Part shown: positions 16,195-32,138 of the stretch, piece by piece
Position numbering within the stretch: position 1 is the first letter of the stretch
Layout of the letters: the number at the start of each line of letters is the position of its first letter
Assembly (NCBI RefSeq): GCF_008757455.1
Contig: NZ_VCMV01000021.1
Span: forward strand, 1 to 64,000
DNA: 64,000 nt
Reading direction: 5' to 3'
From: Microvirga brassicacearum
GTDB lineage: Bacteria > Pseudomonadota > Alphaproteobacteria > Rhizobiales > Beijerinckiaceae
Made by a program: the position numbers and the translations under genes
Notes under the pieces: model-generated
What the model was told of the DNA's origin: nothing
Seen by the model: the letters and a program-made list of their open reading frames with translations, nothing else
Databases searched by the model: none

Positions 16195-17265
16195 ATGCAG
16201 TCCTCGATCATGACCACCACCCCGCACACAATTTTCATCACCTCCTTTCTCGAGAACGAGCATGTCGAGCGCATTCGAGCCGTGGCGCCTGACCGCGTCG
16301 AGGTGATTTTCGAGCCCGATCTTCTTCCGCCGGCGCGCTATCTCGGAGATCACGAGGGAGATGAGAGCTTCCGACGCACGAGCGAGCAGGAAAGCCGTTG
16401 GCGTGACCGGCTTTCAAGGGCCACCATCCTGTGGGATTTTCCGGCAGGCTCCGAGACCGAGCGCGGCCTGGCACTCGCGCCGAATGTCGGATGGGTGCAG
16501 ACCACAAGTTCGGGGGTCGGACAGCGCGTTCATGCACTCGGACTTGCCGACAGCGATCTGATCGTCACGACCGCCCGTGGCGTTCATGCGGATGCGCTTA
16601 CCGAATTCGTCTTCCTCATTCTCCTGGGCCACACGAAGAATCTGCCGCGGCTGCTGCGCGACCAGACACAAAAGCGTTGGGATCGTTATTGCGGCGGAGA
16701 GCTATCCGGCAAGACGATTACGGTTGTTGGGGCCGGTCAGATCGGCGCGCGCATCGGCGCGATCGCGCGCGCGTTCCAAATGAAAGTGATTGCCGTCGTC
16801 AATCGACCATCACCGGACCGTCGGGGCGAATTGTTCGCCGATGACGTGGTGGGTCAATCGGACCTGCAAGGCGCTGTGGCGCAGGCTGACTACGTCGTGC
16901 TCTCGACACCCCACACCCCCCTGACCGATCGGATGATCGACCGGGATGTGATCTCGGCCATGAAACGCGGGGTCGTTCTGGTCAACATCGCCCGGGGCCG
17001 GGTCGTGGATGAAAAGGCGATGATCGACGCCCTGAAAGACGGACGGATCGGATTTGCCGGCCTCGACGTCACCACCGTTGAACCGTTGCCACCGGATTCA
17101 CCCCTCTGGACCCTTCCGAACGTCCTGATCAGCCCCCATTCCGCCAGCACAGCGCCGAGCGAGAACCGGAAGATCACCGACATTTTCTGCAGGAATATCG
17201 CACATTATGTGGATGGCGACCTCGAGCGGATGATCAACCTGCTCGACAAGCCGCGCATGTATTGA
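16195..17265 (+). CDS. D-2-hydroxyacid dehydrogenase (NAD-dependent)
   Basis: 356 aa; an ATG at 16210 is an equally good start, as neither has a clear ribosome site. The Rossmann motif VVGAGQIGARIG follows about 165 residues of split substrate domain. The catalytic Arg is in VNIARGRVV, the Glu in TTVEPLPPDSPLW and the His in LISPHSAS, all in the spacing of the formate/glycerate/phosphoglycerate dehydrogenase family. It reduces a 2-keto acid to the D-hydroxy acid or the reverse. The GhrA/GhrB-like organisation suggests glyoxylate or hydroxypyruvate as possible substrates, but specificity cannot be read. It is cytoplasmic and seems monocistronic. Confidence 0.87.
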   Translation: MQSSIMTTTPHTIFITSFLENEHVERIRAVAPDRVEVIFEPDLLPPARYLGDHEGDESFRRTSEQESRWRDRLSRATILWDFPAGSETERGLALAPNVGWVQTTSSGVGQRVHALGLADSDLIVTTARGVHADALTEFVFLILLGHTKNLPRLLRDQTQKRWDRYCGGELSGKTITVVGAGQIGARIGAIARAFQMKVIAVVNRPSPDRRGELFADDVVGQSDLQGAVAQADYVVLSTPHTPLTDRMIDRDVISAMKRGVVLVNIARGRVVDEKAMIDALKDGRIGFAGLDVTTVEPLPPDSPLWTLPNVLISPHSASTAPSENRKITDIFCRNIAHYVDGDLERMINLLDKPRMY

Positions 17266-17572: not shown

Positions 17573-19096
17573 CTAGGTTGCGTATTTGGCCCGCAGGTAT
17601 TCGAGATATGGTGCAGGGTCGAGACTGCGGCCGGTTTCCCGTCGGAGCAGTTCGTCCCGCGTGAAACGTCGCCCGTGCCGCCAGATCCTTGTCCTCAGGG
17701 AATCCGCTAGTCCGGTGTAGTCCCCTGCGGCGACTTCAGCATCGAGCGAGGATTGATCCCGGCGCAACGCTTCCATCATTTGTGCCGCCATCACGTTGCC
17801 GATCGTATAGGTCGGGAACGAGCCGATATAGCCCGTCGACCAATGGACGTCCTGGAGCACGCCCCTGGAATCATCGGGAACGTCGAGGCCGAGATCGCGC
17901 TTGATCGCAGCATTCCACGCGGCGGGCAGATCAGTCACGGTCAGTGAACCGTCCATCAATGCGCATTCAAGCTCCACACGCAGCATGATGTGGAAATCAT
18001 AAGTGAGTTCGTCGGCCTCGACGCGGATGAAGCCTGGCTCGACCCGTGTGACGGCGCAATAGAACTCTTCCGCGCTTACATCTCCGAGTTGATCGGAGAA
18101 ACGGCGTTGCAATTCCGGAAAATGCAGGCGCCAGAAAGTGCGGCTCCGCACGACGTGGTTTTCCCATAGGCGCGATTGCGATTCATGCGCCCCAAAGCTC
18201 GTGCCGCCAACCGCGTAGAGCCCGATAAGATCGGTCGCGAACGTGGTGCGGGTATAGGCCGGATCAACTCCTTGTTCATAGAGGGCGTGACCCGTCTCGT
18301 GCGCGGTACCGAACAGCGAGGCCGGCAGGTAATTTCTGCTGTAGCGGGTCGTGATCCGCACGTCGTCCCGCGTGAATGAGACCTCGAAGGGATGCACCGC
18401 GGTGTCCAGCCGCCCCCGCGTGAGATCATAGCCGAGCTTTCCGGCCATGCTCAGGCCAAATGCACGCTGCTCGGCTTCCGGGAAATCGCGACACAAGAAG
18501 TCTGATCGGGGCGCAGGCCGCGACCGGGCAGTCTCAAGGATTGGTTGCATGCCGGCTCGAAGAACATCAAAGAGCCTTCCAAGGCTGGCTGCAGTTTCAC
18601 CTGGCTCGTAGATCGACACCATGGCGTCGTAGGGGTGCTCCCTCCAGCCGATGCAATCGGCATAGGCGCGCGCCAACGCTACCGTTTTCTCAAGATGTGG
18701 CGCGAAAATGGAGAAATCGCTTTTGGCGCGAGCTTCGATCCAGGCCGATTGCGCCATCGTTCGAAGGGCCGCGCGCTCCTGTATCAGGGAGGCTGGCACA
18801 CGGCGGTGATGTTCGAAGGCCTGCCTAGTCTGCGCGACCATCCGGCGCTCGGCCGCGTCCGGCGCCGATGACTCGACCGACCTTTCCGCGGCGGCGAGCG
18901 CGTCCGCCGTCTCGGCAGAAAGCAGAAGGTCGCGGGCGACGCGAGTCAACGTGGCGATCTGGTGTCCACGGTTTTCGGCGCCACCGGCCGGCATCATCGT
19001 GCGTGAATCCCATGTCAGCACCGATGTGGAATTCAACACATCGTTGACGGCCGCGACACGCTCATTCAGCGCGGCGAGAGGAGTTTGCTGTATCAT
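17573..19096 (-). CDS. Metallocarboxypeptidase, M32 (Taq) family
   Basis: 507 aa, the usual M32 length. The zinc site HETGH is at residues 266-270 (GTAHETGHALYEQG), with the third ligand Glu305 in GAHESQSRLWEN. The family signatures YEPGET and RIEADE-like (RVEADELTYDFH) are present. It removes C-terminal residues from peptides in the cytoplasm. It follows the peptide ABC transporter ATPase by 18 nt on the same strand, so it is probably the last gene of that operon and trims imported peptides. Confidence 0.92.
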   Translation of the reverse strand: MIQQTPLAALNERVAAVNDVLNSTSVLTWDSRTMMPAGGAENRGHQIATLTRVARDLLLSAETADALAAAERSVESSAPDAAERRMVAQTRQAFEHHRRVPASLIQERAALRTMAQSAWIEARAKSDFSIFAPHLEKTVALARAYADCIGWREHPYDAMVSIYEPGETAASLGRLFDVLRAGMQPILETARSRPAPRSDFLCRDFPEAEQRAFGLSMAGKLGYDLTRGRLDTAVHPFEVSFTRDDVRITTRYSRNYLPASLFGTAHETGHALYEQGVDPAYTRTTFATDLIGLYAVGGTSFGAHESQSRLWENHVVRSRTFWRLHFPELQRRFSDQLGDVSAEEFYCAVTRVEPGFIRVEADELTYDFHIMLRVELECALMDGSLTVTDLPAAWNAAIKRDLGLDVPDDSRGVLQDVHWSTGYIGSFPTYTIGNVMAAQMMEALRRDQSSLDAEVAAGDYTGLADSLRTRIWRHGRRFTRDELLRRETGRSLDPAPYLEYLRAKYAT

Positions 19097-19114
19097 GATT
19101 GCCGATCCAGGAAG

Positions 19115-20119
19115 TCAGCCGGTTCCGCCGGTATTGAGGTGACATGCCGAAAGGCGACCTTCACCGACCGGCAGCAAGGCGGGAACCTCGTGTCTGCAGC
19201 GCGGCCCTGCGAAGGGGCAGCGCGGATGAAAATGGCAACCGGCGGGCGGGTGCAGCGGCGAAGGAATTTCTCCGGCGATCGGCCGGAAATTCTTTCGGCC
19301 GACACCGACCCGCGGCACGCTCTCGAACAAGGCCCGCGTGTAGGGGTGGTTTGGCGCCGCATAAAGTTCAGGCGTCGGCGCGAGTTCGACGATGCGACCG
19401 AGATACATGATCGCGACACGGTCGGAGACGTGCCGCACAACCCCCAGATCATGGCTGATGAAGATGGCCGTGAGGTCGAGATCGCGCCGCAGGTCCATGA
19501 ACAGGTTCAGCACCTGCGCCTGAATCGAGACATCGAGCGAAGCTACCGGCTCGTCCAGCACCAGGAGATCCGGCTTCATGGCGAGGGCACGCGCAATCGC
19601 GATGCGTTGACGCTGTCCACCCGAGAACTGGTGCGGAAAACGGCGACGATAGCTTGGGTCTAGTCCCACGCGTTCAAGCGTGTTCGCCACATAGGCGTCG
19701 GCGTCGCGCGCTCTTACGATGCGATGGGCGACGGGTCCTTCACCGACCGTATCGCCGATGCGCATGCGAGGGTTGAGGCTCGAGAACGGGTCCTGATGCA
19801 CCATCTGGATGCGCGTGGTGAGCTTGTCCGTACGCCGGCCCTTCTCGCGCGCCACCGGTCCCTTGTCGAACAGCACTTTGCCGTCGCTCGGTGTGTAGAT
19901 CCCGGCAACAATCCGTCCCAGCGTGGACTTGCCGCAACCGGATTCGCCGACCAGACCGACCACCTCGCCCTTGCGGACAGTCAGGCTGACATCGCTGACC
20001 GCGCGGACGATTTCAGTCGTGCGCCCGGCCCCGAGCAGACCCGCGATGCGCTCGCCGATGCTCGGACGCTTTATGAAGCGTTTTGATACGTGGTCGATGT
20101 CGAGGAGAGCGGCTGACAT
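19115..20119 (-). CDS. dppF: Peptide ABC transporter ATPase (DppF/OppF type)
   Basis: 334 aa. Walker [10 protein letters not shown], signature [14 protein letters not shown] and Walker [13 protein letters not shown] are intact. The C-terminal oligopeptide-transport tail ([11 protein letters not shown]) carries the Cys residues typical of DppD/F and OppD/F, which can bind an iron-sulfur cluster. The start at 20119 overlaps the upstream dppD-like gene by 49 nt, implying translational coupling. It powers import together with the next gene upstream. Confidence 0.93.
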
Positions 20120-21090
20120 GAATCGGGCTCAATCGGATAATGGCAGAGGGCGGTGCGTCCGTCTTCGAAATGCTGGACAGGCGGTGTGGTGTTGCAGGCC
20201 GGCCCCGCTTTGAAACAGCGAGGCGCGAAAGCACAACCCGGCGGCAGATTGGCAAGCGACGGCGCCGAGCCGGGAACTTGCGGCAATCGCTCGCCCGGTT
20301 CGTGCTCGGCCGGCACGGATGCGAGAAGACCCGCGGTGTAGGGATGCCGCGGCGACGCGATGACGTCCGCTGCCGCACCCGTCTCGACCACGCGGCCCGC
20401 ATACATGACGCAGATATCATCGGCGAGGCTTGATACGACCGCGAGATCGTGCGTGACCCACACGAAGGCGGTGCCGGTCTCGTCTGCAAGGCGGCGCACT
20501 TCGGCGAGAATCTGCCCTTGAATCGAAACGTCGAGGGCTGTGGTCGGCTCGTCCGCGATAATCACGGCCGGCTTGTGCAACAGCGCAATCGCAATCGCCA
20601 CGCGCTGGCGCATGCCACCGGAGAGCTGGTGCGGATAGGCGTCGAGGCGTTCCTCGGGACTAGGGATGCCAACCGTCGCAAGCGCATCGCGGGCGCGGCT
20701 CCGCGCAACTTTGCGCGAAACATTATCGTGGGCGCGGACCGCCGCGATCATTTGCGTCGACACCTTGAGCACCGGGTTCAAGGTCATCATCGGGTCCTGG
20801 AAGACCATCGCGATCTGCGCGCCCCGGACGCGGCGTATCTGCTCGCCTTTGAGCTTTGTCAGATCGACGCCGTTGAGCAGCACTTCGCCGCCCGCGATTC
20901 GCCCCGGCAGCTCGATGAGGCCGAGAATGGAATAGCCGGTGACGCTTTTGCCCGAACCCGATTCGCCAACGAGGCCGAGGATGCGGCCACGGCCAACCTC
21001 GAAGGTCACGCCGTCGACGGCCTTGACGATGCCGGCGCGGACTGCGAACTCGGTTCGCAGGTCCTTGACGCGAAGAACTGGCTCACTCAT
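20071..21090 (-). CDS. dppD: Peptide ABC transporter ATPase (DppD/OppD type)
   Basis: 339 aa. Walker [12 protein letters not shown], signature [15 protein letters not shown] and Walker [13 protein letters not shown] are present, followed by the oligopeptide tail ([14 protein letters not shown]). The N-terminus overlaps the permease stop in an ATGA. It forms the heterodimeric motor with the DppF-type protein. Confidence 0.93.
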
Positions 21091-21980
21091 CGGCTGCGCC
21101 TAGGGTTGAGGACGTAGCGAACCTGATCGCCCACGAGATTGATGGCCACCACCGTGAGCATCAGGGCGATGCCCGGGTAGATCGAGATCCAGTACCGGCC
21201 CGAAAGCAGAAACTGAAAGCCGTTGGAAATCAGCGACCCTAGCGACGGCTGGGTCAATGGCAGCCCCAGCCCCAGAAACGACAACGTGGCCTCCAGCGCG
21301 ATGGAGTTCGCAACCTGCACCGTCGCCACCACGATCAGGGGCGGCAGCGCATTGGGCAACAGATGGCGAAACAGCACCTGTCGCGCAGGCAACGGCGTCG
21401 AGAGCGCGGCCTCGATATAATCCTTGCTGCGTTCGGCGCTGGCCGCCCCGTGCGTGGTACGCGCAAAGTAGGCGTATTGCGCCAACGTCAATGCCGTCAC
21501 GAGTTGCGGCAACCCCTGTCCCAGCATGGCAACGAGCACCAGGGCGAGCAGGATCGCCGGTAGAGAAAGCTGGAGATCGATGATGCGCATGATCACCGCC
21601 TCGATCCGTCCACCGTAATAGGCGGCCATCAGGCCGACCACGCCGCCGAGCAGCAACGCGAACGTGCCCGCAAGGACGCCGACAATGAGGCTCGTGCGCA
21701 GGCCAAAGAGAATGGCCGAGAAGACATCCCGTCCCGCAGCGTCCGTGCCGAGCCAGTGAACATAGCCGCCCGACCCGGTTTCGCCCGGCGTCAACCGCGC
21801 ATCGAACAGATCGAGCGTTTCCTGGTTGTAGGGATCCTGTGGCGCGATCAGCGGCGCGAAAATCGCCATCAGCACGACCGACACGATGATGATGAGCGCC
21901 GCCAACGCGACGGGGCTCTGCTTGTAATCCTGCCAGAAGTTGAAAAGCCTGCTCCAGCGGGTTTCGGGGGCGAGGCTCAT
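21087..21980 (-). CDS. dppC: Peptide ABC transporter permease (DppC/OppC type)
   Basis: 297 aa with an N-terminal membrane segment, a periplasmic loop (HWLGTDAAGRDVFSAILFG is the DppC/OppC hallmark) and about five further membrane helices. The EAA-like coupling loop (EAALSTPLPARQVLFRHLLPNA) contacts the ATPases. The ATGA overlaps on both sides show one tight operon. Confidence 0.92.
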   Translation of the reverse strand: MSLAPETRWSRLFNFWQDYKQSPVALAALIIIVSVVLMAIFAPLIAPQDPYNQETLDLFDARLTPGETGSGGYVHWLGTDAAGRDVFSAILFGLRTSLIVGVLAGTFALLLGGVVGLMAAYYGGRIEAVIMRIIDLQLSLPAILLALVLVAMLGQGLPQLVTALTLAQYAYFARTTHGAASAERSKDYIEAALSTPLPARQVLFRHLLPNALPPLIVVATVQVANSIALEATLSFLGLGLPLTQPSLGSLISNGFQFLLSGRYWISIYPGIALMLTVVAINLVGDQVRYVLNPRRSR

Positions 21981-22951
21981 GATGCGGCCCTCACGCGGAT
22001 GCGGGGATCCAGTTGGCCGTAGATCAGGTCGACGACGAGGTTGATCAACACGAACAGAAATACCACGAGAATGAGATAGGCGACCATCACCGGACGATCG
22101 AGGACGGTGATGGAATCGATGATGAGCTTGCCCATGCCGGGCCAGTTGAACACGGTCTCGGTCACGACCGCGAAGGCGAGCGTCGAACCAAGTTCAAGCC
22201 CAAAGACGGTGACGATCGGAATCGAAATGTTTTTCAGGACGTGAAGTCCGACGACCTTGCGCTCGGAAAGGCCCTGAGCGCGCGCGAACCGCACATAATC
22301 GGAACTCATCACCTCCACCGTGCCAGAACGCGTCAGGCGAATCAGAAGTCCGAGCTTGAACAGCGCGAGATTGAATGCCGGCAGGATGATGTAGCTCAAA
22401 CCCTCCATCGACCCGATGGAAAGCTTCATCCCGAGGAAATCGGTGACCGGCCCGCGCCCGCCCGATGGCAGCCAACCCAATTCGACCGCGAAGGCCATGA
22501 TGAGCAGCAGGCCGACCCAGAAGGTCGGCACGCTGAAGCCGAGAACCGACAGGCCCATGATGAATTTCGACGAGATCGCATCGGGCTTGTAGCCGGCCCA
22601 AAGGCCGAGAGGAATGCCGAGCAATGTGGCGATCAGCATCGCGCTGACGGCCAGTTCGAGGGTCGCCGGCATGCGCGAGAAGATCAGTCCTATCACCGGC
22701 AGCCGGTAGATGAAGGATTCGCCGAGATCTCCTCTGAGCATATTGCCCATGAAGATGAAATATTGCTCGATTAGCGGCCTGTCGAAGCCGTAGCGCTGAA
22801 TGAGTGCCTCACGCAACGCTTGGTCGGACGCGGGATCGATCATCACGTCGATCGGATTGCCGATGGCGTAGACGCCAACGAACACGATCACCGACATCGC
22901 GATGATCACCAGAAGCGCCTGCAGGATGCGCTGAATAAAGAAGCCGATCAT
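21977..22951 (-). CDS. dppB: Peptide ABC transporter permease (DppB/OppB type)
   Basis: 324 aa. About six membrane helices start with FIQRILQALLVIIAMSVIVF, the typical DppB N-terminus. The C-terminal ETVFNWPGMGKLIIDSI is the conserved OppB/DppB coupling segment. It follows the binding-protein gene by 77 nt. Confidence 0.92.
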   Translation of the reverse strand: MIGFFIQRILQALLVIIAMSVIVFVGVYAIGNPIDVMIDPASDQALREALIQRYGFDRPLIEQYFIFMGNMLRGDLGESFIYRLPVIGLIFSRMPATLELAVSAMLIATLLGIPLGLWAGYKPDAISSKFIMGLSVLGFSVPTFWVGLLLIMAFAVELGWLPSGGRGPVTDFLGMKLSIGSMEGLSYIILPAFNLALFKLGLLIRLTRSGTVEVMSSDYVRFARAQGLSERKVVGLHVLKNISIPIVTVFGLELGSTLAFAVVTETVFNWPGMGKLIIDSITVLDRPVMVAYLILVVFLFVLINLVVDLIYGQLDPRIRVRAAS

Positions 22952-23028
22952 ACTTGCCCATGCGGGGTTGAAGACACGTCAGTCAAGGAACGACCGGCCG
23001 TTTGCCAGGGCCGGCCGCAGGGTGGCGA

Positions 23029-24609
23029 TCAGCTCTTGGGCTTGATCTCGTAGGCGAGCGTCTCCTGATCGACCCGCGCCGGGATTGTCATCGTGCCCTT
23101 CTTGGCAGCCCAGACGGTCTGGAGCTGCACTGTCGGGATCAGCGCCCGGTCCGTCATGGAAACGTCGGTTACCTTCTCGAACAAGGCGCGACGCTTGGCG
23201 TCGTCCATGGTGCGGCTGCCGTCCTCGAGAAGCTTGTCCACTTCCGGATTCGAGTAGCCCTGCTTGTTGAACGCGCCGAGGCCGGTGGACGGATCGGCCG
23301 TGTGAACCAGCGAACCATAGGTGTAGCTTGCCTCACCCGTCAGCGTACCCCAGCCGCTCATCCAGAGGCTGAACTCACCCTTCTGCTGGGCGGGGAAAAA
23401 CACTGTGCCGTTGAGGGCATTGGCGTTCACCTTCAGGCCAGCGCGCGCCCACATCTGCGAGAGCGCTTCACAAACCGCCGAGTCGCCGGGCAGGCGATTG
23501 TTGGTGCAGTGAAAGTCGATCTCGAAACCCTTCGGATATCCGGCATCGGCCAGAAGCTGCTTTGCCTTGGCGACGTCGTAAGGGCGCTCCGGCAGGCTCT
23601 TGCTGCCACCGAAGAAGCTTGTCGGCATCAACTGGTTCGCCGGACGCCCGAGGCCTTCAAGCACGACACGCACGAGCGTCTTGCGATCGATGGCAAGGTC
23701 CATCGCCTCGCGAACCTTGGGGTCACGGAGCGGGTTGGCGGTGATTTCCTTGCCGTCCACCTTCACCGGTTTCGGCAACGTTTCCTTCACGTTCGGCGTG
23801 ATGTTCAGAAAGTAGACGGAATCGGCCACAAAGGTGTCGACGCTCTTGTCCTTTTGCATCGACGCGTAGTCGGTCGCCGGCACATAGTTGACAAGATCGA
23901 CCTGGCCGGACTTCAGCGCCGCCATGCGGGCCGGATCGTTCGGGATCTCCTTGCGGACGACCTTTTGCCAGGGCTGCTTGTCGCCCCAATAGCCATCGAA
24001 GCGCTCGACGACCAGATCACCCTTCGGCTCCCACGAGAGGAACTTGTACGGGCCTGTGCCGATGGCGGCCTTGCCGGAATTGAACTGTTCGTTGCGCGCA
24101 TCCATGCCGATCGATTTCGACACGACAAACAGGCGGATGAAGTCGTTCGGCAGTGTCGGCGCGGCAACCTTCGTCTTCACATGCAGGGTGTACTTGTCTT
24201 TGACTTCCGTCTCTTTCACCTGCTTGGTGTAGATGGTCATGCTCATCGGGCCGGTGACCACCGGAATGCGGTCGATGGAGAATTTCACGTCCTCTGCGGT
24301 CAGCTCCGAACCGTCGTGAAACTTCACACCTTCGCGAATTTTGAACTCCCACGTCGTTTCATCGACGGGCTTCCACGAGACCGCAAGACCGGGCTTCATC
24401 TGCAGGTTTTCGTCGGCCATCACCAGCGTGTCGAACACGTGGCGAAGGGCTTCGGCCTGACTGCCTAGGGTCGACCAATGCGGGTCGATCGAGTCCGGGC
24501 CGGCGCGAACGCCCATGGTCAGCGTCTGAGCCGAAACCGTGCCGCCGAGCATGGTCCCGAGAAGAAGAGCAGCGGCGAGCGCCCCGCCAAGCTTGAACGT
24601 TTGTTTCAT
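23029..24609 (-). CDS. dppA: Peptide-type ABC substrate-binding protein (SBP family 5)
   Basis: 526 aa from the ATG at 24609; a TTG one codon earlier is also open. AGGGG lies eight bases upstream. A Sec signal peptide ends near TVSAQT. The family 5 signature region (TMGVRAGPDSIDPHW, WEFKIREGVKFHDG, YDVAKAKQLLADAGYP) is clear. It is periplasmic and sets substrate specificity; family 5 binds di- and oligopeptides but also nickel, opines and glutathione. It is the first gene of the leftward operon, divergent from the GntR regulator. Confidence 0.92.
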   Translation of the reverse strand: MKQTFKLGGALAAALLLGTMLGGTVSAQTLTMGVRAGPDSIDPHWSTLGSQAEALRHVFDTLVMADENLQMKPGLAVSWKPVDETTWEFKIREGVKFHDGSELTAEDVKFSIDRIPVVTGPMSMTIYTKQVKETEVKDKYTLHVKTKVAAPTLPNDFIRLFVVSKSIGMDARNEQFNSGKAAIGTGPYKFLSWEPKGDLVVERFDGYWGDKQPWQKVVRKEIPNDPARMAALKSGQVDLVNYVPATDYASMQKDKSVDTFVADSVYFLNITPNVKETLPKPVKVDGKEITANPLRDPKVREAMDLAIDRKTLVRVVLEGLGRPANQLMPTSFFGGSKSLPERPYDVAKAKQLLADAGYPKGFEIDFHCTNNRLPGDSAVCEALSQMWARAGLKVNANALNGTVFFPAQQKGEFSLWMSGWGTLTGEASYTYGSLVHTADPSTGLGAFNKQGYSNPEVDKLLEDGSRTMDDAKRRALFEKVTDVSMTDRALIPTVQLQTVWAAKKGTMTIPARVDQETLAYEIKPKS

Positions 24610-24626
24610 CAAATATCCCCTCTTGC

Positions 24627-24659
24627 TAAGAACCGGTCTTTTCGTCCAATGTGTTCTTA
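24627..24659. promoter_or_regulatory. Candidate operator: TAAGAAC-N19-GTTCTTA
   Basis: A perfect 7-bp inverted repeat (24627-24633 and 24653-24659) lies in the 102-nt gap between the divergent dppA-like and GntR genes. The AT-rich stretch to its right could hold both promoters. It is a plausible site for the GntR protein, by position only. Confidence 0.45.
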
Positions 24660-24711
24660 TCGATTATGACGGTAGGTCGCCAAACCCGCAAAAGTCAACA
24701 GCAACGTATAG

Positions 24712-25779
24712 ATGACACATAATAACTCTACTGTTGCAAATGCCGACTGTGACAGCCCGATAGAACGGTCCAACGGCGAGACGATTCTTGTCGGGCTTGC
24801 CGGATCGCTTGATCGCACGCTCCCCGTTCCGTTGGGCGTGCAGCTCCGCGGTTTGATCGAGTTCGGCATCGCGCTCGGCGAATTGCCGTCGGGCGTGCGC
24901 CTGCCGTCGGTACGCGAACTCGCCGAACGAGCCGGCATCGCGCCGATGACCGTTGCGACGGTTTATCGCGAATTGCGCGAATCCGGACTGATCGAATCGA
25001 AGCCCGGTGCCGGCACCTATGTGGGCGACGGTCATAGCAGCGACGGCCTGCGCTCCTCCGCGATGCGCAAGCTGCAGCGCCGCATCGATGGGTTGTTCAA
25101 TGAGGCTGAACAACTCGGCCTCGCGCCGTCCCTGGTCGCCTCCTTGGTGAATGCCCGCGCGGCGCGGGGCCGCTCATCCCTGCGTCCGTTGCGCATCGTC
25201 ATGGTGGGGAACTTCATCGACACGACGCAGCAATATGTCGATTGCATCCGCGGGCACCTCGGCGGCGGCGATACCATTGTGGCCACCACGGTCAGCGCAA
25301 TCGAAAAGGCCGTATCCGAACCCCTTCCCTATGATTTGTGCGTGACGCTGGCCCATCGTCGCGGTGAGGTCGAAAACCTGCTGCCCGCCGGCATACCAGT
25401 GGTGGGCCTGAGTTTCATTCCCGCGGAGGAGACTCGCGCACTCCTCGCCGTCATCGATCCGATGGCTCGCATCGGCATCGTGTCGATTTTTCCAGAATTC
25501 ATGGCGCTTATGAAACCGGGCGTCTTGCGTTTTACGCCGCACGTCTCGGATGCCGAAGTCCGACTTGTCACCGCTCCGGACCTCAAGGAATTTCTGCTAG
25601 GCTTGGATGTGCTGGTCTATGCCAGTGGCGCCGAACCCATTTTGAAGGACCTGCCGTCCGGCCGGCAGGCCATCGAGTTCCGATACGTGCCCGACCCGCA
25701 CGCTATTCGGCAAACCCTGATCCCGGCGCTGGAGCGTCTGCGCACCGAAGCCGTCACCAAAGAGGAAAAGCCTTCATGA
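24712..25779 (+). CDS. GntR-family transcriptional regulator with ligand-binding domain
   Basis: 355 aa. A winged helix-turn-helix of the GntR type spans about 35-105 (LPSVRELAERAGIAPMTVATVYRELRESGLI, quoted here in part: SVRELAERAGIAPMTVATVY). The C-terminal part (IVMVGNFIDTTQQYVDCI, VVGLSFIPAEETRALL, GIVSIFPEFMALM) looks like a periplasmic-binding or LacI-type sensor fold rather than the FCD, UTRA or aminotransferase domains. It is the first gene of the rightward operon and overlaps the creatininase gene by ATGA, so it is likely autoregulated with its target genes on both sides. Confidence 0.82.
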   Translation: MTHNNSTVANADCDSPIERSNGETILVGLAGSLDRTLPVPLGVQLRGLIEFGIALGELPSGVRLPSVRELAERAGIAPMTVATVYRELRESGLIESKPGAGTYVGDGHSSDGLRSSAMRKLQRRIDGLFNEAEQLGLAPSLVASLVNARAARGRSSLRPLRIVMVGNFIDTTQQYVDCIRGHLGGGDTIVATTVSAIEKAVSEPLPYDLCVTLAHRRGEVENLLPAGIPVVGLSFIPAEETRALLAVIDPMARIGIVSIFPEFMALMKPGVLRFTPHVSDAEVRLVTAPDLKEFLLGLDVLVYASGAEPILKDLPSGRQAIEFRYVPDPHAIRQTLIPALERLRTEAVTKEEKPS

Positions 25780-26471
25780 AGATCAGCGACATGAACTGGC
25801 TTCAGGTTGAACAATACCTGAAGTCGGACGACCGCGCGGTGGTGCCGCTCGGCTGCACCGAACAGCATGCCTTCCTGAGCCTCTCGGTCGACAGCATCCT
25901 GGCTGAGCGCGTCGCCGTCGAGGCCGCGGAACCTTTGGGCGTTCCAGTGTTTCCAGTCGTTGCCTATGGCATCACGCCATCTTTCATGGCCTATCCCGGC
26001 ACGGTTTCGCTGAAGGCTGAAACATACCTGCGTATCCTCACCGATATGCTTGACAGCCTGCGCAGCACCGGCTTTCGCCGCATTCTTTTCGTCAACGGTC
26101 ATGGCGGCAATTCGCCTGGTCAAAGCGCGGCGCTCGAATGGATGGGCAGGAACACCGATTGCCGCGTCCGCTTCCACAATTGGTGGAACGCGCCCCGCAC
26201 CTTCGAGAAGGTGAAGGAGATCGATCCCGTCGCGTCTCACGCCTCCTGGATGGAAAATTTCCCGTGGACGCGGCTGGCCGGCATCGAACAGCCGGACCAT
26301 CAAAAGCCGATGGTGGATCTCGAGCGCATGCGGAGTTTCGGACCCGAAGGCGTCCGCGAGATGCTCGGTGATGGCAATTTCGGCGGCCGCTACCAGCGCC
26401 CGGACGAAGACATGAACGCTATCTGGTCGGTGGCACTGGAGGAAACCCGCGCGCTGATCGAGACCTGGTGA
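25776..26471 (+). CDS. Creatininase-family metal-dependent amidohydrolase
   Basis: 231 aa. Metal ligands of the creatininase fold can be placed: Glu29 and His31 (GCTEQHAF), Asp39 (LSVDS) and His109 (FVNGHGGN). The usual EQHGPHLP is altered to EQHAFLSL. Family members hydrolyse cyclic amides (creatinine), formamides or peptide-like bonds (MftE). The substrate here is unknown. It is the first enzyme of the operon after the regulator. Confidence 0.85.
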   Translation: MKISDMNWLQVEQYLKSDDRAVVPLGCTEQHAFLSLSVDSILAERVAVEAAEPLGVPVFPVVAYGITPSFMAYPGTVSLKAETYLRILTDMLDSLRSTGFRRILFVNGHGGNSPGQSAALEWMGRNTDCRVRFHNWWNAPRTFEKVKEIDPVASHASWMENFPWTRLAGIEQPDHQKPMVDLERMRSFGPEGVREMLGDGNFGGRYQRPDEDMNAIWSVALEETRALIETW

Positions 26472-27502
26472 TGCAGGACTCCGTCACAAATCAAAACACC
26501 ATTCTGATCTGGGGTGCTGGCGCCATCGGCGGCACGCTCGGCGCCTATCTGGCGCGCGCGGGCGAGGACGTGTTGCTCGTCGACATCGTCGAGCAACACG
26601 TCGAGGCCATGAACCGCGACGGACTCGTCATCGATGGGCCCGTCGAAGCTTTCACCCAAAGGGTCCGCGCCACGACGCCTGAAGGCGTGCGGGGCCAGTT
26701 CAAGCGCATCATCCTCGCCGTCAAGGCGCACCACACTCGGGACGCAGTGCGCGCGCTCAAGCCGCACCTGGCGAAAGATGGCTCAGTGCTCTCTGCGCAG
26801 AACGGTCTGAACGAGATCGTCATCGCCGAAGAAATTGGCCAGGAACGCACGGTTGGCTGCTTTGTGAATTTCGGCGCGGATTGGCTGGAGCCAGGCCGTA
26901 TTCTCTTCGGTAATCGCGCAACCGTGGCGGTCGGCGAAATCAGCGACAGCGAACCGCGTGCGGCCCGGGATTATCACCGGCTGCTGTCGATCTTTGAACC
27001 CGATGCGGTGCTCACCGACAACATCTGGGGCTATCTCTGGGGCAAGCTTGGTTACGGCGCCATCCTGTTTGCAACTGCGCTGACGAACGAGTCAATGTCG
27101 GACAACCTTGCGTCGCAGCGGCACTTTCAGGTCTTCAACCGCCTCGGCCGCGAAGTGATGGCCGTGGCCCTCGCGCGCCATGTCACACCTCTGGGTTTCA
27201 ACGGCTTCGATCCCGCCGCGTTCATGCCCGACGCTGATGAGAACGCGGCGCGCCGCTCGGTCGCCGACATGGAGGAGTTCAACCGGCATACTGCCAAAAC
27301 CCATTCGGGCATCTGGCGCGATCTTGCGGTCCGTAAGCGGAAAACGGAAGTGGATGCGCAAATTGCCATCATCGCAACACTGGGCGCGGAGGCCCGCGTC
27401 AAGACGCCCACGATCGACAGGTTGGTCGAGCTGATCCACGACATCGAGGACGGCCGGCGCGAGCAATCCTGGGTCACGCTGGATTTGATGCTGCAGCCAT
27501 GA
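26471..27502 (+). CDS. Ketopantoate-reductase-family dehydrogenase
   Basis: 343 aa from the ATG that overlaps the upstream TGA (tgATG); a GTG one codon earlier is possible. The NAD(P) motif is IWGAGAIGGTLGAYLARAG. The C-terminal helical domain has the catalytic-type Lys region (GYLWGKLGYGAILFATAL). At 343 aa it is longer than PanE (about 300). The context (no pan genes, amide hydrolases around) suggests that it oxidises or reduces a catabolic intermediate rather than ketopantoate. Confidence 0.85.
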   Translation: MQDSVTNQNTILIWGAGAIGGTLGAYLARAGEDVLLVDIVEQHVEAMNRDGLVIDGPVEAFTQRVRATTPEGVRGQFKRIILAVKAHHTRDAVRALKPHLAKDGSVLSAQNGLNEIVIAEEIGQERTVGCFVNFGADWLEPGRILFGNRATVAVGEISDSEPRAARDYHRLLSIFEPDAVLTDNIWGYLWGKLGYGAILFATALTNESMSDNLASQRHFQVFNRLGREVMAVALARHVTPLGFNGFDPAAFMPDADENAARRSVADMEEFNRHTAKTHSGIWRDLAVRKRKTEVDAQIAIIATLGAEARVKTPTIDRLVELIHDIEDGRREQSWVTLDLMLQP

Positions 27503-28254
27503 AAATTGACCTCTCCCACCGTCGTGCCATCGTCACCGGGGCGGCACAAGGCATCGGTCGCAGCATCGTGAAGACGCTTGCCGCCGATGGAGTCCGCGTC
27601 GCAGCCTTCGATCTCGACGAGGCCGGCTTGCGCCACGCCGCAGAGGCGGGCGCAACAATCACGCACACTCTGGACCTCTCCGACCGCGATGCTGTCGGCG
27701 AGGCGGTGCGGGGTACGGCCGAAAAGCTCGGCGGCATCGACATTCTGATCAACTGTGCTGGCGGCGTCCGCGGGCAGGTCGGTCGGCCAATCGAAGAGGT
27801 CAGCGAACAGGATTGGCTGGTGCTGTTCGAGGCCAATGTGCACGGCGCGTTCTGGTGCTCGCAAGCCGCGGCTCCGCACATGAAGGCCGGGGGCTTTGGC
27901 CGGATCGTCAACATTGCGTCGGGCGCCGGATTGCGCCCGAGCCTCACGGGCATCCAGGCCTACACCGCGTCGAAGCATGCGCTGGTGGGCCTGACCAAGC
28001 AGTTGAGTTTCGAACTCGGCCCCTTCGGCATTACCGTCAACAGCATCGCGCCGGGATTCGTGCTCTCGAACCCCGCCACCCAACGTCAGTGGGAAAGCTA
28101 TGGCGCCGAGGGACAGCAACGTCTGCTCGAGAGCATTCACACCCGGCGCCTCGGCCGACCGCAGGATATCGCCGACACGGTGATGTTTTTCGCATCCGAT
28201 GCTGCCGGCTGGATCTCTGGTCAGATCCTCTCGGTGGATGGCGGGCGATCGTAG
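27499..28254 (+). CDS. Short-chain dehydrogenase/reductase (SDR)
   Basis: 251 aa. The cofactor motif TGAAQGIG follows residue 13; NCAGG, the catalytic Ser (NIASGAG) and YTASK are all present, and the end (GQILSVDGG) is classical. Asp at DLDEAG after beta-2 favours NAD(H). The ATGA overlap with the upstream gene shows translational coupling. The substrate is unknown. Confidence 0.92.
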   Translation: MKIDLSHRRAIVTGAAQGIGRSIVKTLAADGVRVAAFDLDEAGLRHAAEAGATITHTLDLSDRDAVGEAVRGTAEKLGGIDILINCAGGVRGQVGRPIEEVSEQDWLVLFEANVHGAFWCSQAAAPHMKAGGFGRIVNIASGAGLRPSLTGIQAYTASKHALVGLTKQLSFELGPFGITVNSIAPGFVLSNPATQRQWESYGAEGQQRLLESIHTRRLGRPQDIADTVMFFASDAAGWISGQILSVDGGRS

Positions 28255-28313
28255 ATTGAGTTTCGAGGTCGCGGTGGCCTCCACCAACGGAAATTTCTAA
28301 GGGAGCAAGCGGT

Positions 28314-29213
28314 TTGGACGAGATGCAGCAGGAACCTTGGGCCTGGCAGGACGATGTCTGGCGCGACAAGGTCAATCACGTGCGTGCCGGACGATCGATG
28401 AAGCCTGCACGGTGGAAGAACGGTGCGCGTTGTGCAGTCGCCTTCTCGTTCGATTCTGACCACGAAACCAATGAATTGCGTGACGGCGGACAATCGATCG
28501 GGCGCATGTCCCAGGGCCAATATGGCAACCGAAAAGGGGTTCCGCGAATTCTCGACGCGCTGGAAAAGCACGACGTCAGGGCAACATTCTTCGTGCCGGC
28601 GGTGACCGCCCTGCTCTATGAAGATGAGCAGCGGCGGGTTGCTGCGGCCGGTCATGAACTCGGAATTCACGGGTGGATTCACGAACTCAACAGTCAGCTT
28701 CCCTATGAGACCGAGCGCGATCTCATGTTCCGGGCAGCCGACACGCTCGAACGCGTCAGTGGAACACGACCCGTCGGCATGCGCACGCCGTCGTGGGATT
28801 TCAGCCCCGATACGCTGCGGATCGAGCGTGAACTCGGCCTGCTCTACGATTCCTCGCTCATGGCCGACGATGATCCCTACGAACTCGTGGAAAAGGGTGA
28901 GGCGACCGGCATCGTGGAATTGCCGGTGGAATGGATTCGCGACGACGCGGTCTATTTCAATATGCACCGGTTCAACGGATTGCGCCCGCATACCGCTCCA
29001 GCGGATGTCTATGATATCTTTTTCCGCGAGTTCGAGAGAGCCTACGAGGAAGGCGGCCTCTTTCTGCTGACCATGCATCCGCACGTCACCGGGTACCGCT
29101 CGCGCATTTGGATTCTCGAGAAACTGCTGGCGGAGATCACGCGGCGCGCCGACGTGTGGATCGCAACACATGCCGAGATCGCCGCATACGTGAAGGCGGA
29201 GTGCCCCGCATGA
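28314..29213 (+). CDS. Polysaccharide-deacetylase/PuuE-type hydrolase, possible cyclic imidase
   Basis: 299 aa. The TTG at 28314 is chosen because GGGAG is eight bases upstream; the ATG at 28323 is too far from it. NodB-fold metal motifs are visible: Asp in SFDSDHE, the HxxxH in LGIHGWIHE, and a late His (LLTMHPHV). The sequence resembles HpPgdA and bacterial cyclic-imide hydrolases and PuuE allantoinase more than chitooligosaccharide deacetylases, and there is no signal peptide, so it is cytoplasmic. Opening a cyclic imide or hydantoin-like ring is my inference from family and neighbours. Confidence 0.8.
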   Translation: MDEMQQEPWAWQDDVWRDKVNHVRAGRSMKPARWKNGARCAVAFSFDSDHETNELRDGGQSIGRMSQGQYGNRKGVPRILDALEKHDVRATFFVPAVTALLYEDEQRRVAAAGHELGIHGWIHELNSQLPYETERDLMFRAADTLERVSGTRPVGMRTPSWDFSPDTLRIERELGLLYDSSLMADDDPYELVEKGEATGIVELPVEWIRDDAVYFNMHRFNGLRPHTAPADVYDIFFREFERAYEEGGLFLLTMHPHVTGYRSRIWILEKLLAEITRRADVWIATHAEIAAYVKAECPA

Positions 29214-30274
29214 CGTCGCTTTTTCGTGCACGCGATGCGGGACTCGCCTGCGGTCGTACGGAGACGGGCGTCCGCAACAGCATCACGGATGTGCCGGGCG
29301 TTCGCGTCGGTCACCGGACTCTCAATCACGGCGGCATTCGCACGGGTGTGACCGCGATCGTTCCCCCAGCGTCAAATGCCTATCGCGAGAAGCCTGTCGC
29401 GGCGGTCCATGTCCTCAACGGCTTCGGCAAGAGCGCCGGGTTGGTTCAAATCGAGGAACTCGGAACGATCGAGACACCTTTGCTCCTCACCAATACGCTC
29501 GCGGTCGGCACCTGCTGCACCGCCCTCGTCCGTCATGCCATCGGCGCCAACCCGGACATTGGACGGGAGACGGCGACCGTGAATCCGGTGGTGCTCGAAT
29601 GCAATGACGGCTTTCTCAACGACATTCAGGCACTTGCCGTGACCGAAGCGGACGCCACCGCGGCACTGGACGCCGCATCGGCGGATTTCGTATCCGGCGC
29701 GGTCGGGGCCGGTTGCGGGATGAGTGCGTTCGGGTTCAAGGGCGGCATCGGCACATCCTCCCGCCGGATCGCCCTCGACGACGAGAGTTTTCATCTGGGC
29801 GTTCTGGTGCTCGCCAATTTCGGGCGCGCCGGAGATCTTCGTCTTCCCGATGGAACGCTTGTGCGGCCGCCGTCGGCGGTCGACGGCGAGACCACGGAGA
29901 AGGGTTCAGTCATTATCGTTATGGCGACCGATATTCCGCTGGGCGACCGCCAGCTCAAGCGCGTCATTCGCCGCGCCGGCGCCGGCTTGGCGCGCCTTGG
30001 CTCATTCTGGGGGCATGGAAGCGGCGATATTGCACTTGGATTCACGACGGCGAACACGGTGCTTCACGACGAGCGCGCCGCGCTCATCGACCAACGCGTA
30101 CTCAACGAGGACCGCATCGATCTTCTTTTCGAGGCAATGGCCGACGCGACGCAGGAGGCGGTACTGGATGCTCTCGTCGCCGCCGGTCCCATGACCGGTC
30201 GCAACGGCCATCACCGGCCCGGCCTCGCAGACACTTTGATCCAGCTTCGTTCAACGGGAACACCACGCTCATGA
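29210..30274 (+). CDS. P1-family (DmpA/BapA) aminopeptidase-type hydrolase
   Basis: 354 aa from the ATG at 29210, overlapping the upstream stop (ATGA); the longer frame from 29108 runs inside the previous gene. Family signatures are NSITDVPGVRVGH near the N-terminus and GFKGGIGTSSR. P1 enzymes are self-cleaving Ntn-type hydrolases; DmpA takes L- and D-amino acid amides, BapA takes beta-peptides. DmpA cleaves itself before Ser250. The corresponding stretch here reads GAGCGMS, so the likely nucleophile is Cys169. Confidence 0.88.
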   Translation: MTSLFRARDAGLACGRTETGVRNSITDVPGVRVGHRTLNHGGIRTGVTAIVPPASNAYREKPVAAVHVLNGFGKSAGLVQIEELGTIETPLLLTNTLAVGTCCTALVRHAIGANPDIGRETATVNPVVLECNDGFLNDIQALAVTEADATAALDAASADFVSGAVGAGCGMSAFGFKGGIGTSSRRIALDDESFHLGVLVLANFGRAGDLRLPDGTLVRPPSAVDGETTEKGSVIIVMATDIPLGDRQLKRVIRRAGAGLARLGSFWGHGSGDIALGFTTANTVLHDERAALIDQRVLNEDRIDLLFEAMADATQEAVLDALVAAGPMTGRNGHHRPGLADTLIQLRSTGTPRS

Positions 30275-31239
30275 CAAGCGCCTTGTCGTCCAAAACCGAT
30301 TTCACCCTCGCCGTTCATGGCGGCGCCGGTACGATTCTGCGTACGAAGATGACGCCTGAACGCGAAGCAGCCTATCATGCCGGGCTACGCCGGGCGCTCG
30401 AAGCAGGGCGCGTCGTGCTGGCGGATGGCGGAACGGCCATCGACGCGGTGACCGCGGCCGTGATGACGCTGGAGGACGAGCCGCTGTTCAACGCAGGGCG
30501 CGGCGCGGTCTACACATCGGCGGGCCTGCAGGAAATGGACGCCGCCATCATGGATGGTCGTGATCGCGCGGCCGGGGCCATCGCCGGCATCTGCGGTCCA
30601 CGCAATCCGATCCTTGCAGCCCGCGCCGTGATGGAGAAATCCGACCACGTGTTTCTGATCGGCGACAACGCCCTGAACTTCTGCCGCCAGAACGGCATCG
30701 CGTTTGAGGACGCGTCCTATTTCTTCACCGATCAACGCTGGGACGCGTTGCAGGAAACACTGGCGATGCGACGGAGCGGCGGGGAGGATCACGACGAATC
30801 CCGCAAGCACGGCACGGTCGGCGCCGTGGCGCGCGACCGCAATGGCCATCTGGCGGCTGCGACTTCGACCGGGGGCATGACGGCGAAGGCTCCCGGCCGT
30901 GTTGGCGACAGCCCCGTGATCGGCGCGGGCACATGGGCCGATGACGAGACCTGCGCCGTCTCCGGCACCGGCCACGGCGAAATTTTCATCCGCTACGCTG
31001 CCGGTCACGAAATCGCGTCTCGCCTCCGCTATGCGGGGCAAAATCTCCAACAAGCCGTGCACGGTGTCGTCGTCGACGTTCTGGCGCCAGTTGGAGGTTC
31101 AGGCGGAGTCATCGCGGTCGATAGAAGCGGCGCGTTCTCGTTGACCTTCAATTGCTCCGGAATGTATCGCGGTGTCGTCACCGGTGACGGAGTTTTGCGT
31201 ACCGCGATCTACGACGAACCTCTCGTCGACTTTCGCTAA
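30271..31239 (+). CDS. iaaA: Isoaspartyl peptidase / type III L-asparaginase
   Basis: 322 aa from the ATG at 30271 (overlap ATGA with the P1 gene). The plant-type asparaginase fold is clear: AVHGGAGTI at the N-terminus, LFNAGRGAV, the autocleavage site before Thr182 (RKHGTVGAV), and GDSPVIGAGTWAD. It matures to an alpha/beta heterotetramer and hydrolyses beta-aspartyl dipeptides and asparagine. It is the last gene of the rightward operon. Beta-aspartyl products would fit hydrolysis of aminosuccinimide or isoaspartyl peptides by its neighbours. Confidence 0.92.
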   Translation: MTSALSSKTDFTLAVHGGAGTILRTKMTPEREAAYHAGLRRALEAGRVVLADGGTAIDAVTAAVMTLEDEPLFNAGRGAVYTSAGLQEMDAAIMDGRDRAAGAIAGICGPRNPILAARAVMEKSDHVFLIGDNALNFCRQNGIAFEDASYFFTDQRWDALQETLAMRRSGGEDHDESRKHGTVGAVARDRNGHLAAATSTGGMTAKAPGRVGDSPVIGAGTWADDETCAVSGTGHGEIFIRYAAGHEIASRLRYAGQNLQQAVHGVVVDVLAPVGGSGGVIAVDRSGAFSLTFNCSGMYRGVVTGDGVLRTAIYDEPLVDFR

Positions 31240-31247
31240 ACGGTCGC

Positions 31248-32138
31248 TCAATAAGCCCAGCGTTGTGCCTTCGCGACGAGAAAGTCCCGGAAGATCTGCA
31301 CTCTTGCGACCGAGCGCATTTCTTCCGGATAGACGAGGTAACTGTCGAGCGTCGGCATCTCGACCTCCCGCAGGACTCGCTTCACGTTCGGGTTGCCGCC
31401 CATCGCATAATCCGGTGCCATGCCGATTCCGGTGCCGGTCTCGATCGCTCGCCGGAGAGCGAGGCTGTCATTGACCATGAGGCGATTGGGGCGCGGATCC
31501 TTTGGGTTGCGTCCCAGGCTGGTCAATCGGTGCAGGTTCAGGATGAACGCAGGCTGATCACCCCCCAGAGAGACAATGCGGTGGCGATCAAGATCCGCCA
31601 CGCTCTCCGGCTCACCGAAGCGATCCACGTACGCGAGAGACGCGTAGGCATGATAGTGAATGGTGAACAGGCGCCGCTGGATCAGATCCGGCTGAGCCGG
31701 GCGTCGCAGCCGGATCGCCACGTCCGCTTCCCGCATAGCGAGGTCGAGTTCGTCGTTTGTAAGAATCAGCTGAATGTTCACTTCGGGATAAGCATCGAGG
31801 AATTCGGTGATGCGCTGGGCAAGCCAAATTCCGCCAATCCCGACAGTCGCAGTGATCTTGAGATCGCCAGCGGGTCGGTCGCTGGTTTCCGTGAGACGCT
31901 GGCGCGTCGCCTCAAGTCGCAGATGCACGTCGCGGGCTGCTCTGTGGAGCACGTCACCATGTTCGGTCAGGATGAGGCCGCGGGCGTGGCGATGGAAGAG
32001 GGGAACTTTTAAATCGCGCTCGAGCGCGCTGATCTGACGGCTCACCGAGGATTGGTTCAGTCCGAGCTTCTCACTCGCCCGGGTGAAATTCCCGGCTTCC
32101 GCAACCTCGTAGAAAAGTCGGATCTTGTCCCAATCCAA
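31248..32138 (-). CDS. LysR-family transcriptional regulator
   Basis: 296 aa with a TTG start; GAGGG lies seven bases upstream, and family members start at this residue (MDWDKIRLF). HTH at about 17-36 (FTRASEKLGLNQSSVSRQIS), then a type 2 periplasmic-binding effector domain. It is convergent with iaaA, so a role in the peptide locus is uncertain. Similar MDWDKLR-type LysR proteins are common orphan regulators in Rhizobiales. Confidence 0.88.
   Translation of the reverse strand: MDWDKIRLFYEVAEAGNFTRASEKLGLNQSSVSRQISALERDLKVPLFHRHARGLILTEHGDVLHRAARDVHLRLEATRQRLTETSDRPAGDLKITATVGIGGIWLAQRITEFLDAYPEVNIQLILTNDELDLAMREADVAIRLRRPAQPDLIQRRLFTIHYHAYASLAYVDRFGEPESVADLDRHRIVSLGGDQPAFILNLHRLTSLGRNPKDPRPNRLMVNDSLALRRAIETGTGIGMAPDYAMGGNPNVKRVLREVEMPTLDSYLVYPEEMRSVARVQIFRDFLVAKAQRWAY

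Follow-up and report, generated by a model that had tools for sequence, protein, structure and literature searches.

What compound does a bacterium take up when a peptide-type importer and a run of oxidoreductases and amide hydrolases diverge from one short promoter region? The question is raised by a locus at positions 17573-31239 of the window (the whole stretch of 64,000 nucleotides analyzed here) from Microvirga brassicacearum, whose genome comprises 5.2 Mb in 82 contigs. We lean, if only slightly, toward reading it as an inducible gene island that takes up and dismantles a small peptide-like amide. Judging from its genes and those of its relatives, the locus combines an ABC importer of the SBP5 type with a set of enzymes; these stand beside one GntR regulator and are conserved as a unit. 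At its center are a creatininase-fold protein (Crn), a ketopantoate-reductase-like oxidoreductase (ApbA), and a short-chain dehydrogenase/reductase (SDR). Because this core is constant and the hydrolases around it vary, Crn, ApbA, and SDR together with the importer form a module with interchangeable hydrolases. The linkage of these genes is not due to chance.

The locus consists of two divergent runs of tightly linked genes with 99 bases between the arms. The leftward run encodes the solute-binding protein, two permeases, two ATPases, and an M32 carboxypeptidase, and the rightward run encodes GntR, Crn, ApbA, SDR, a PuuE-like hydrolase, an S58 aminopeptidase, and an isoaspartyl peptidase, as follows.

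17573-19096, minus strand: M32 carboxypeptidase, closing the importer arm (PF02074, 575.5 bits; HETGH motif)
19115-20119, minus strand: ABC importer ATPase AbcF (45% identity to the second half of E. coli GsiA; position conserved)
20071-21090, minus strand: ABC importer ATPase AbcD (46% identity to the first half of E. coli GsiA)
21087-21980, minus strand: ABC importer permease PermC (34% identity to GsiD)
21977-22951, minus strand: ABC importer permease PermB (37% identity to GsiC)
23029-24612, minus strand: SBP_bac_5 solute-binding protein, SBP5 (PF00496, 301.1 bits)
24613-24711, no strand: divergent promoter region with a candidate GntR operator (block common to related loci, by-eye comparison)
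24712-25779, plus strand: GntR-type regulator (PF00392, 44.6 bits)
25776-26471, plus strand: Crn, creatininase-fold metal hydrolase of an unnamed subfamily (Pfam Creatininase)
26468-27502, plus strand: ApbA, ketopantoate-reductase-like oxidoreductase (TIGR00745, 152.1 bits, passing the cut-off of 141.35)
27499-28254, plus strand: SDR oxidoreductase (PF13561, 188.5 bits; YTASK motif)
28314-29213, plus strand: PuuE-like, polysaccharide-deacetylase-fold hydrolase PdaI (PF01522, 66.4 bits)
29210-30274, plus strand: S58 (DmpA/P1-type) aminopeptidase (PF03576, 370.7 bits; start set by the ATGA overlap)
30271-31239, plus strand: isoaspartyl peptidase of the IaaA type, an Ntn hydrolase (PF01112, 340.6 bits)

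Families were assigned with Pfam and NCBIfam models and their cut-offs, and every gene that a first-pass annotation had named for this divergent locus was found. M32, SBP_bac_5, GntR, Creatininase, ApbA with ApbA_C, SDR, Polysacc_deac_1, Peptidase_S58, and Asparaginase_2 all score above their Pfam cut-offs. The ATGA/TGATG-linked order described in that annotation holds at five junctions (GntR-Crn, Crn-ApbA, ApbA-SDR, PuuE-like-S58, and S58-isoaspartyl peptidase), but a gap of 59 bases lies between SDR and the PuuE-like gene, so the chain of overlaps is not continuous. With N termini judged by eye, a signal-peptide-like start is present on SBP5 and absent from the enzymes. Motifs that serve as catalytic signatures are present in M32, isoaspartyl peptidase, S58, Crn, the PuuE-like protein, and SDR.

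Conservation was followed from the genus outward. The closest named relatives of Crn are from Microvirga (83-87% identity, and 83-85% in a separate comparison with named Microvirga isolates). In 48 genomes of the genus, a close Crn was defined by at least 83% identity (host genome included) and a neighbor by a distance within 12 kb. Crn has a match in 36 of these genomes, at 83% identity or more in 35, and the remaining 12 gave none. M32 is near Crn in all 35 genomes with a close Crn, and both S58 and isoaspartyl peptidase are near it in 34; in the exceptional genome these two genes lie on a different contig from Crn. Of 297 genomes of the order, 30 hold a Crn match at E ≤ 1e-20, and in 25 of these the identity reaches at least 54%. 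At E ≤ 1e-50, Crn is found in 11 of 350 genomes of Chloroflexi (the phylum of locus L058) and in 21 of 111 genomes of the phylum of locus L105 (Calidithermus). Crn relatives also occur in 33 plasmid records.

Gene neighborhoods were compared in named other genomes for the best 80 of 582 confirmed Crn relatives, a sample skewed to close relatives, with genes mapped by tblastn and identity thresholds for partner genes chosen by us. Sixteen loci shorter than 13 kb were excluded from the denominator. The Crn-ApbA-SDR core is present in 49 of the 64 loci of at least 13 kb, with the SDR gene in relatives usually directly 3′ of ApbA. Of eight kinds of amide hydrolase, one or more accompany the core in 48 of those 49 loci (L070 is the exception), and SBP5 with a permease does so in 42. 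The comparison was widened to 126 distinct loci, with short contigs admitted and L135 and L151 dropped as duplicates of L058 and L105. This set contains 87 core loci, of which 75 hold one of seven hydrolases and 70 hold SBP5; the corresponding numbers among the 39 non-core loci are 9 and 10.

A reverse search started from ApbA, with at most five candidates per genome scored at the first pass, and found it in 21 of 385 genomes of the class. Twenty of the 25 listed places were fetched (L225 repeats L046), and Crn is present in 18, indicating that ApbA is closely tied to Crn. One of the two Crn-less loci is cut by a contig edge and has isoaspartyl peptidase adjoining ApbA; the other has a weaker ApbA match (46%) with an amidase. 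In seven loci of this search (L210, L212, L213, L214, L216, L217, and L221), SBP5, isoaspartyl peptidase, and ApbA are contiguous. The first-pass annotation would have counted a lack of linkage elsewhere as refuting its reading; the linkage is strong in the genus, best-80, widened, and reverse-search sets, so the reading is not refuted by that check.

The hydrolases are the variable part. Core loci carry M32 with M20 (nine loci), PuuE-like with isoaspartyl peptidase and M32 (eight), M20 alone (six), and other sets; the combination of PuuE-like, S58, isoaspartyl peptidase, and M32 seen at 17573-31239 occurs in four. Within the best 80, the PuuE-like gene is found in 16 loci and S58 in six, five of them Microvirga, so that the DmpA-like gene is nearly confined to this genus. 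Plasmid copies from Alloyangia and Sulfitobacter have the same arrangement as here minus S58, two Deinococcus records and Octadecabacter have an M20 version, and a Microvirga ossetica plasmid has a version with M20 and an aspartoacylase-like gene. Importer type goes with hydrolase set: in the 126 loci, an SBP5 at least 45% identical to the one here is accompanied by PuuE-like in 18 of 25 cases and by isoaspartyl peptidase in 19 of 25, whereas more distant SBP5 proteins are accompanied by M20 dipeptidase (37 of 55), an aspartoacylase-like protein (13 of 55), or amidase (12 of 55). The four amide, imide, or peptide hydrolase folds in one transcript to which attention had been drawn thus describe Microvirga but are not general. 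Uptake and dismantling of a peptide-like compound, with oxidoreductases for the product, is supported by gene content and linkage; the kind of locus had been recognized correctly, the chemistry had been made too specific, and the hydrolases described belong in this combination mostly to Microvirga.

Several observations weigh against the proposed island. On the Crn tree, the exchange of M20 and PuuE-like requires only three changes and that of the importer five, and independent-pairs tests are not significant (median p 0.375 when ApbA is paired with a hydrolase, 0.219 when it is paired with SBP5, and 1 for PuuE-like and importer type); these tests used 127 loci, one duplicate included (L174 of L067). 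With so few changes and non-significant paired tests, the locus counts are not independent events. Twelve of the 87 core loci, several on short contigs, show none of the seven hydrolases. Crn, conversely, is not tied to ApbA: among 18 hand-picked genomes (14 without ApbA in the Crn locus and four with it), 12 hold no ApbA relative at E ≤ 1e-40, so Crn also stands alone. Crn likewise occurs without the partner genes in several loci from Verrucomicrobia, some of which are on short contigs. In two Chloroflexi loci (L058 and L094), Crn and SDR lie, by eye, near a sugar-type ABC transporter and kinase or Gfo/Idh-type genes, with none of the searched peptidases found in these loci; the substrate of Crn therefore need not be peptidic. 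SBP5 proteins, moreover, bind non-peptides too. What the core processes may be a hydroxylated or cyclic residue found also outside peptides.

Crn itself has the creatininase fold and carries the motifs EQH, NGHGGN, and HASWME. Assignment to a named function was rejected in three cases: as creatininase (EC 3.5.2.10; TIGR04448, 71.8 bits versus a cut-off of 235), as MftE (TIGR03964, 62.6 bits versus 172), and as IolN (NF041098, 58.1 bits versus 245). Gly111 of Crn, invariant in 45 sequences, aligns with Glu122, an important residue of creatininase; E122Q mutant creatininase entries are among the PDB matches listed. ApbA is the sole protein of the genome above the ketopantoate-reductase cut-off of TIGR00745. 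In Deinococcota relatives, the M20 gene is followed by genes for RraA-like aldolases (three identified with Pfam, others by eye), which would fit a 2-oxo-acid product.

In the rightward arm, the PuuE-like protein, with motifs FDSD and HGWIH, is closest among PDB sequences to 3rxz (E 6e-53), and it was rejected as a PuuE allantoinase (TIGR03212, 76.4 bits versus a cut-off of 424.6). S58 is closest to 2drh (E 6.6e-88), named as a D-aminopeptidase, and has the GS cleavage-site motif GSVI at 233 in the numbering of the open reading frame from 29207. The isoaspartyl peptidase is 48% identical to E. coli IaaA, contains HGTVGAV with the HGT autocleavage motif at 180-186, and scores 301.7 bits with the beta-aspartyl-peptidase equivalog model NF007589, under the cut-off of 567; cleavage of beta-aspartyl dipeptides is its predicted activity. 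In the leftward arm, the importer is a family-5 peptide-type ABC system, and the top NCBIfam match of SBP5 is GsiB (170.7 bits, below the cut-off of 594; 26% identity).

Comparison by eye shows that the divergent promoter region shares a block of some 40 bases with five Microvirga and two Salinarimonas loci. The five Microvirga copies contain a near-perfect 18-base palindrome centered on ATCGAT, which is weaker at 24613-24711 here, and the shared block is a candidate GntR operator. The regulator has a structure model with a predicted local distance difference test (pLDDT) score of 88.6. Its fold-search matches are mostly to the DNA-binding part, and at E 0.001 Pfam gave no family for its C-terminal part.

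We propose that the compound, once captured by the binding protein, enters the cell through the importer and that the cytoplasmic hydrolases would then cleave its amide bonds. M32 would work from the C-terminal side and S58, whose family tolerates D- or beta-residues, from the N-terminal side, while the isoaspartyl peptidase would split a beta-aspartyl bond and the PuuE-like enzyme an N-acyl or ring amide. Crn, ApbA, and SDR might then process a leftover non-standard residue with two redox reactions linked to NAD(P) and a single metal-dependent hydrolysis, and GntR could sense an intermediate and switch both arms. A peptide-like substrate is supported. For the version of the locus in the window, the most specific guess that we would venture, and a doubtful one, is a beta-aspartyl amide. 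Since lineages exchange hydrolases around an unchanging core, the relatives probably import different conjugates of one recurrent moiety.

General dipeptide scavenging would account for the locus with an ordinary peptide importer and broad peptidases, leaving ApbA, SDR, and Crn to act on unrelated by-products. M32, M20, S58, and isoaspartyl peptidase are broad enzymes, and M20 passes the NCBIfam "dipeptidase" model. PMC10206079 also reports a Roseivivax IaaA without preference for the residue after beta-Asp. However, what is constant in the module is Crn-ApbA-SDR and no single peptidase, and ApbA was seen without Crn just twice among the 20 fetched loci, once at a contig end, which makes this explanation unlikely. 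Somewhat less likely again is catabolism of a cyclic imide, lactam, or hydantoin, in which the PuuE-like protein or Crn would open a ring (e.g. aminosuccinimide) before the isoaspartyl peptidase cut the resulting beta-aspartyl bond; it is partly a special case of the proposed island, and a cyclic imide or lactam is a possible substrate. The creatininase fold of Crn and the PDB fold neighbor of the PuuE-like protein agree with it, and a dihydropyrimidinase near L138 and hydantoinase/oxoprolinase-like proteins in L042 and L062 (the latter two by eye), as other openers of cyclic amides, keep the idea alive. Yet the PuuE-like gene is confined to a minority of loci and its product falls far under the allantoinase model, Crn has a glycine where creatininase has Glu122, and sequence does not reveal a ring-opening activity.

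Another reading, that the locus scavenges beta-Asp-Arg/Lys dipeptides from cyanophycin or isopeptides resembling glutathione, draws on the likeness of the isoaspartyl peptidase to E. coli IaaA and on the GsiABCD-like importer. The second-best PDB match of the peptidase is 8dqm, which we take to be the Roseivivax IaaA mentioned above. That enzyme is placed in a cyanophycin cluster in PMC10206079. Neither substrate, however, requires Crn, ApbA, or SDR; SBP5 has little identity to GsiB; and a search of the host genome for Peptidase_S51, the cyanophycinase family, gave 0 matches, the control search being positive in 10 of 14 genomes. We consider this origin improbable. Least probable of all is breakdown of pantothenate or pantetheine, in which amidases would free beta-alanine, ApbA would run in reverse on pantoate, and SDR would oxidize the 4-hydroxyl. 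ApbA does pass the ketopantoate-reductase model, alone in the genome, and PDB relatives of S58 and M20 include beta-peptidyl (3n2w) and beta-Ala-His (3dlj) peptidases, but M32, the isoaspartyl peptidase, and a peptide-type importer would be unneeded, and no further gene of such a pathway was identified.

Some neighboring observations are recorded here. Five Verrucomicrobia stretches (L072, L076, L079, L088, and L093; contigs of 4.6-15 kb) have a Crn 64-66% identical to the one here with no importer, ApbA, or SDR seen beside it, and four of these five Crn genes follow a binding-protein-like gene of one cluster. On a Klebsiella pneumoniae IncFIB plasmid (L117), importer genes, GntR, and Crn are followed by IS5-family elements, with ApbA and SDR not found in that stretch. 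Beyond the M32 gene, on the opposite strand, lies a D-2-hydroxyacid dehydrogenase gene (16195-17265), for which the best-80 loci, whose flanks past M32 are short, gave matches of 31-33% only. A convergent LysR-type regulator gene (31248-32138) ends near the isoaspartyl peptidase gene and has matches of 25-27% only in the best-80 loci.

The module is real and conserved, and its characterization is apparently absent from the literature searched, in which we found no description of this cluster. Found in bacteria from soil, from the sea, and from plants as well as on plasmids, so conserved a gene set points to a naturally common substrate that is missing from the pathway descriptions searched. 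Families annotated by default as "creatininase," "2-dehydropantoate 2-reductase," and "SDR" gain a joint, testable role, and the binding protein of the importer offers a direct route to the ligand. It is plausible, if somewhat short of probable, that the locus belongs to an undescribed pathway that extends over many phyla and serves a common natural amide, with Crn as a new creatininase-fold hydrolase that works with a dedicated ApbA and SDR on a modified (e.g. beta-aspartyl, cyclized, or hydroxylated) residue, and with lineages swapping upstream amidases to suit their conjugates.

Among known systems, parts of the locus have clear counterparts. In E. coli K-12, iaaA adjoins the glutathione importer genes gsiABCD, so that an IaaA-type enzyme (48% identical) again stands beside a family-5 importer with parts 26-46% identical; this same pairing of enzyme and importer class counts in favor of the proposed island. 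The arrangement is not the same, however; GsiA is one fused ATPase, the E. coli stretch examined has no Crn, ApbA, SDR, PuuE-like, S58, or M32 gene, and SBP5, at 26% identity to GsiB and under the GsiB cut-off, makes the locus no more than a possible member of this operon type. The Pip/Aap system of plant-associated Pseudomonas (PipR, HEHEAA import) likewise combines ABC import of an amide with peptidase genes. A divergent SBP5, that of L048, is closest to AapF (7kz8, E 7.8e-75), which we take to be the HEHEAA-binding protein, whereas the SBP5 described here is much farther from AapF (E 1.3e-28), and control there is of the LuxR type with a proline iminopeptidase. PMC10134790 describes a system, with peptidase genes as neighbors, in which an ABC transporter imports an ethanolamine derivative. 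Cyanophycin utilization loci, as presented in PMC10206079, share an importer and an isoaspartyl dipeptidase with this locus, which differs in its additional oxidoreductases and in a host genome without a cyanophycinase-family match. Crn resembles the creatininase family (creatininase, MftE, and IolN) in fold and at most aligned metal-ligand positions, but falls under all three named model cut-offs and has NGHGGN instead of NGHYEN, plus a HASWMEN-type motif. The locus is a variant of known uptake-and-hydrolysis operons.

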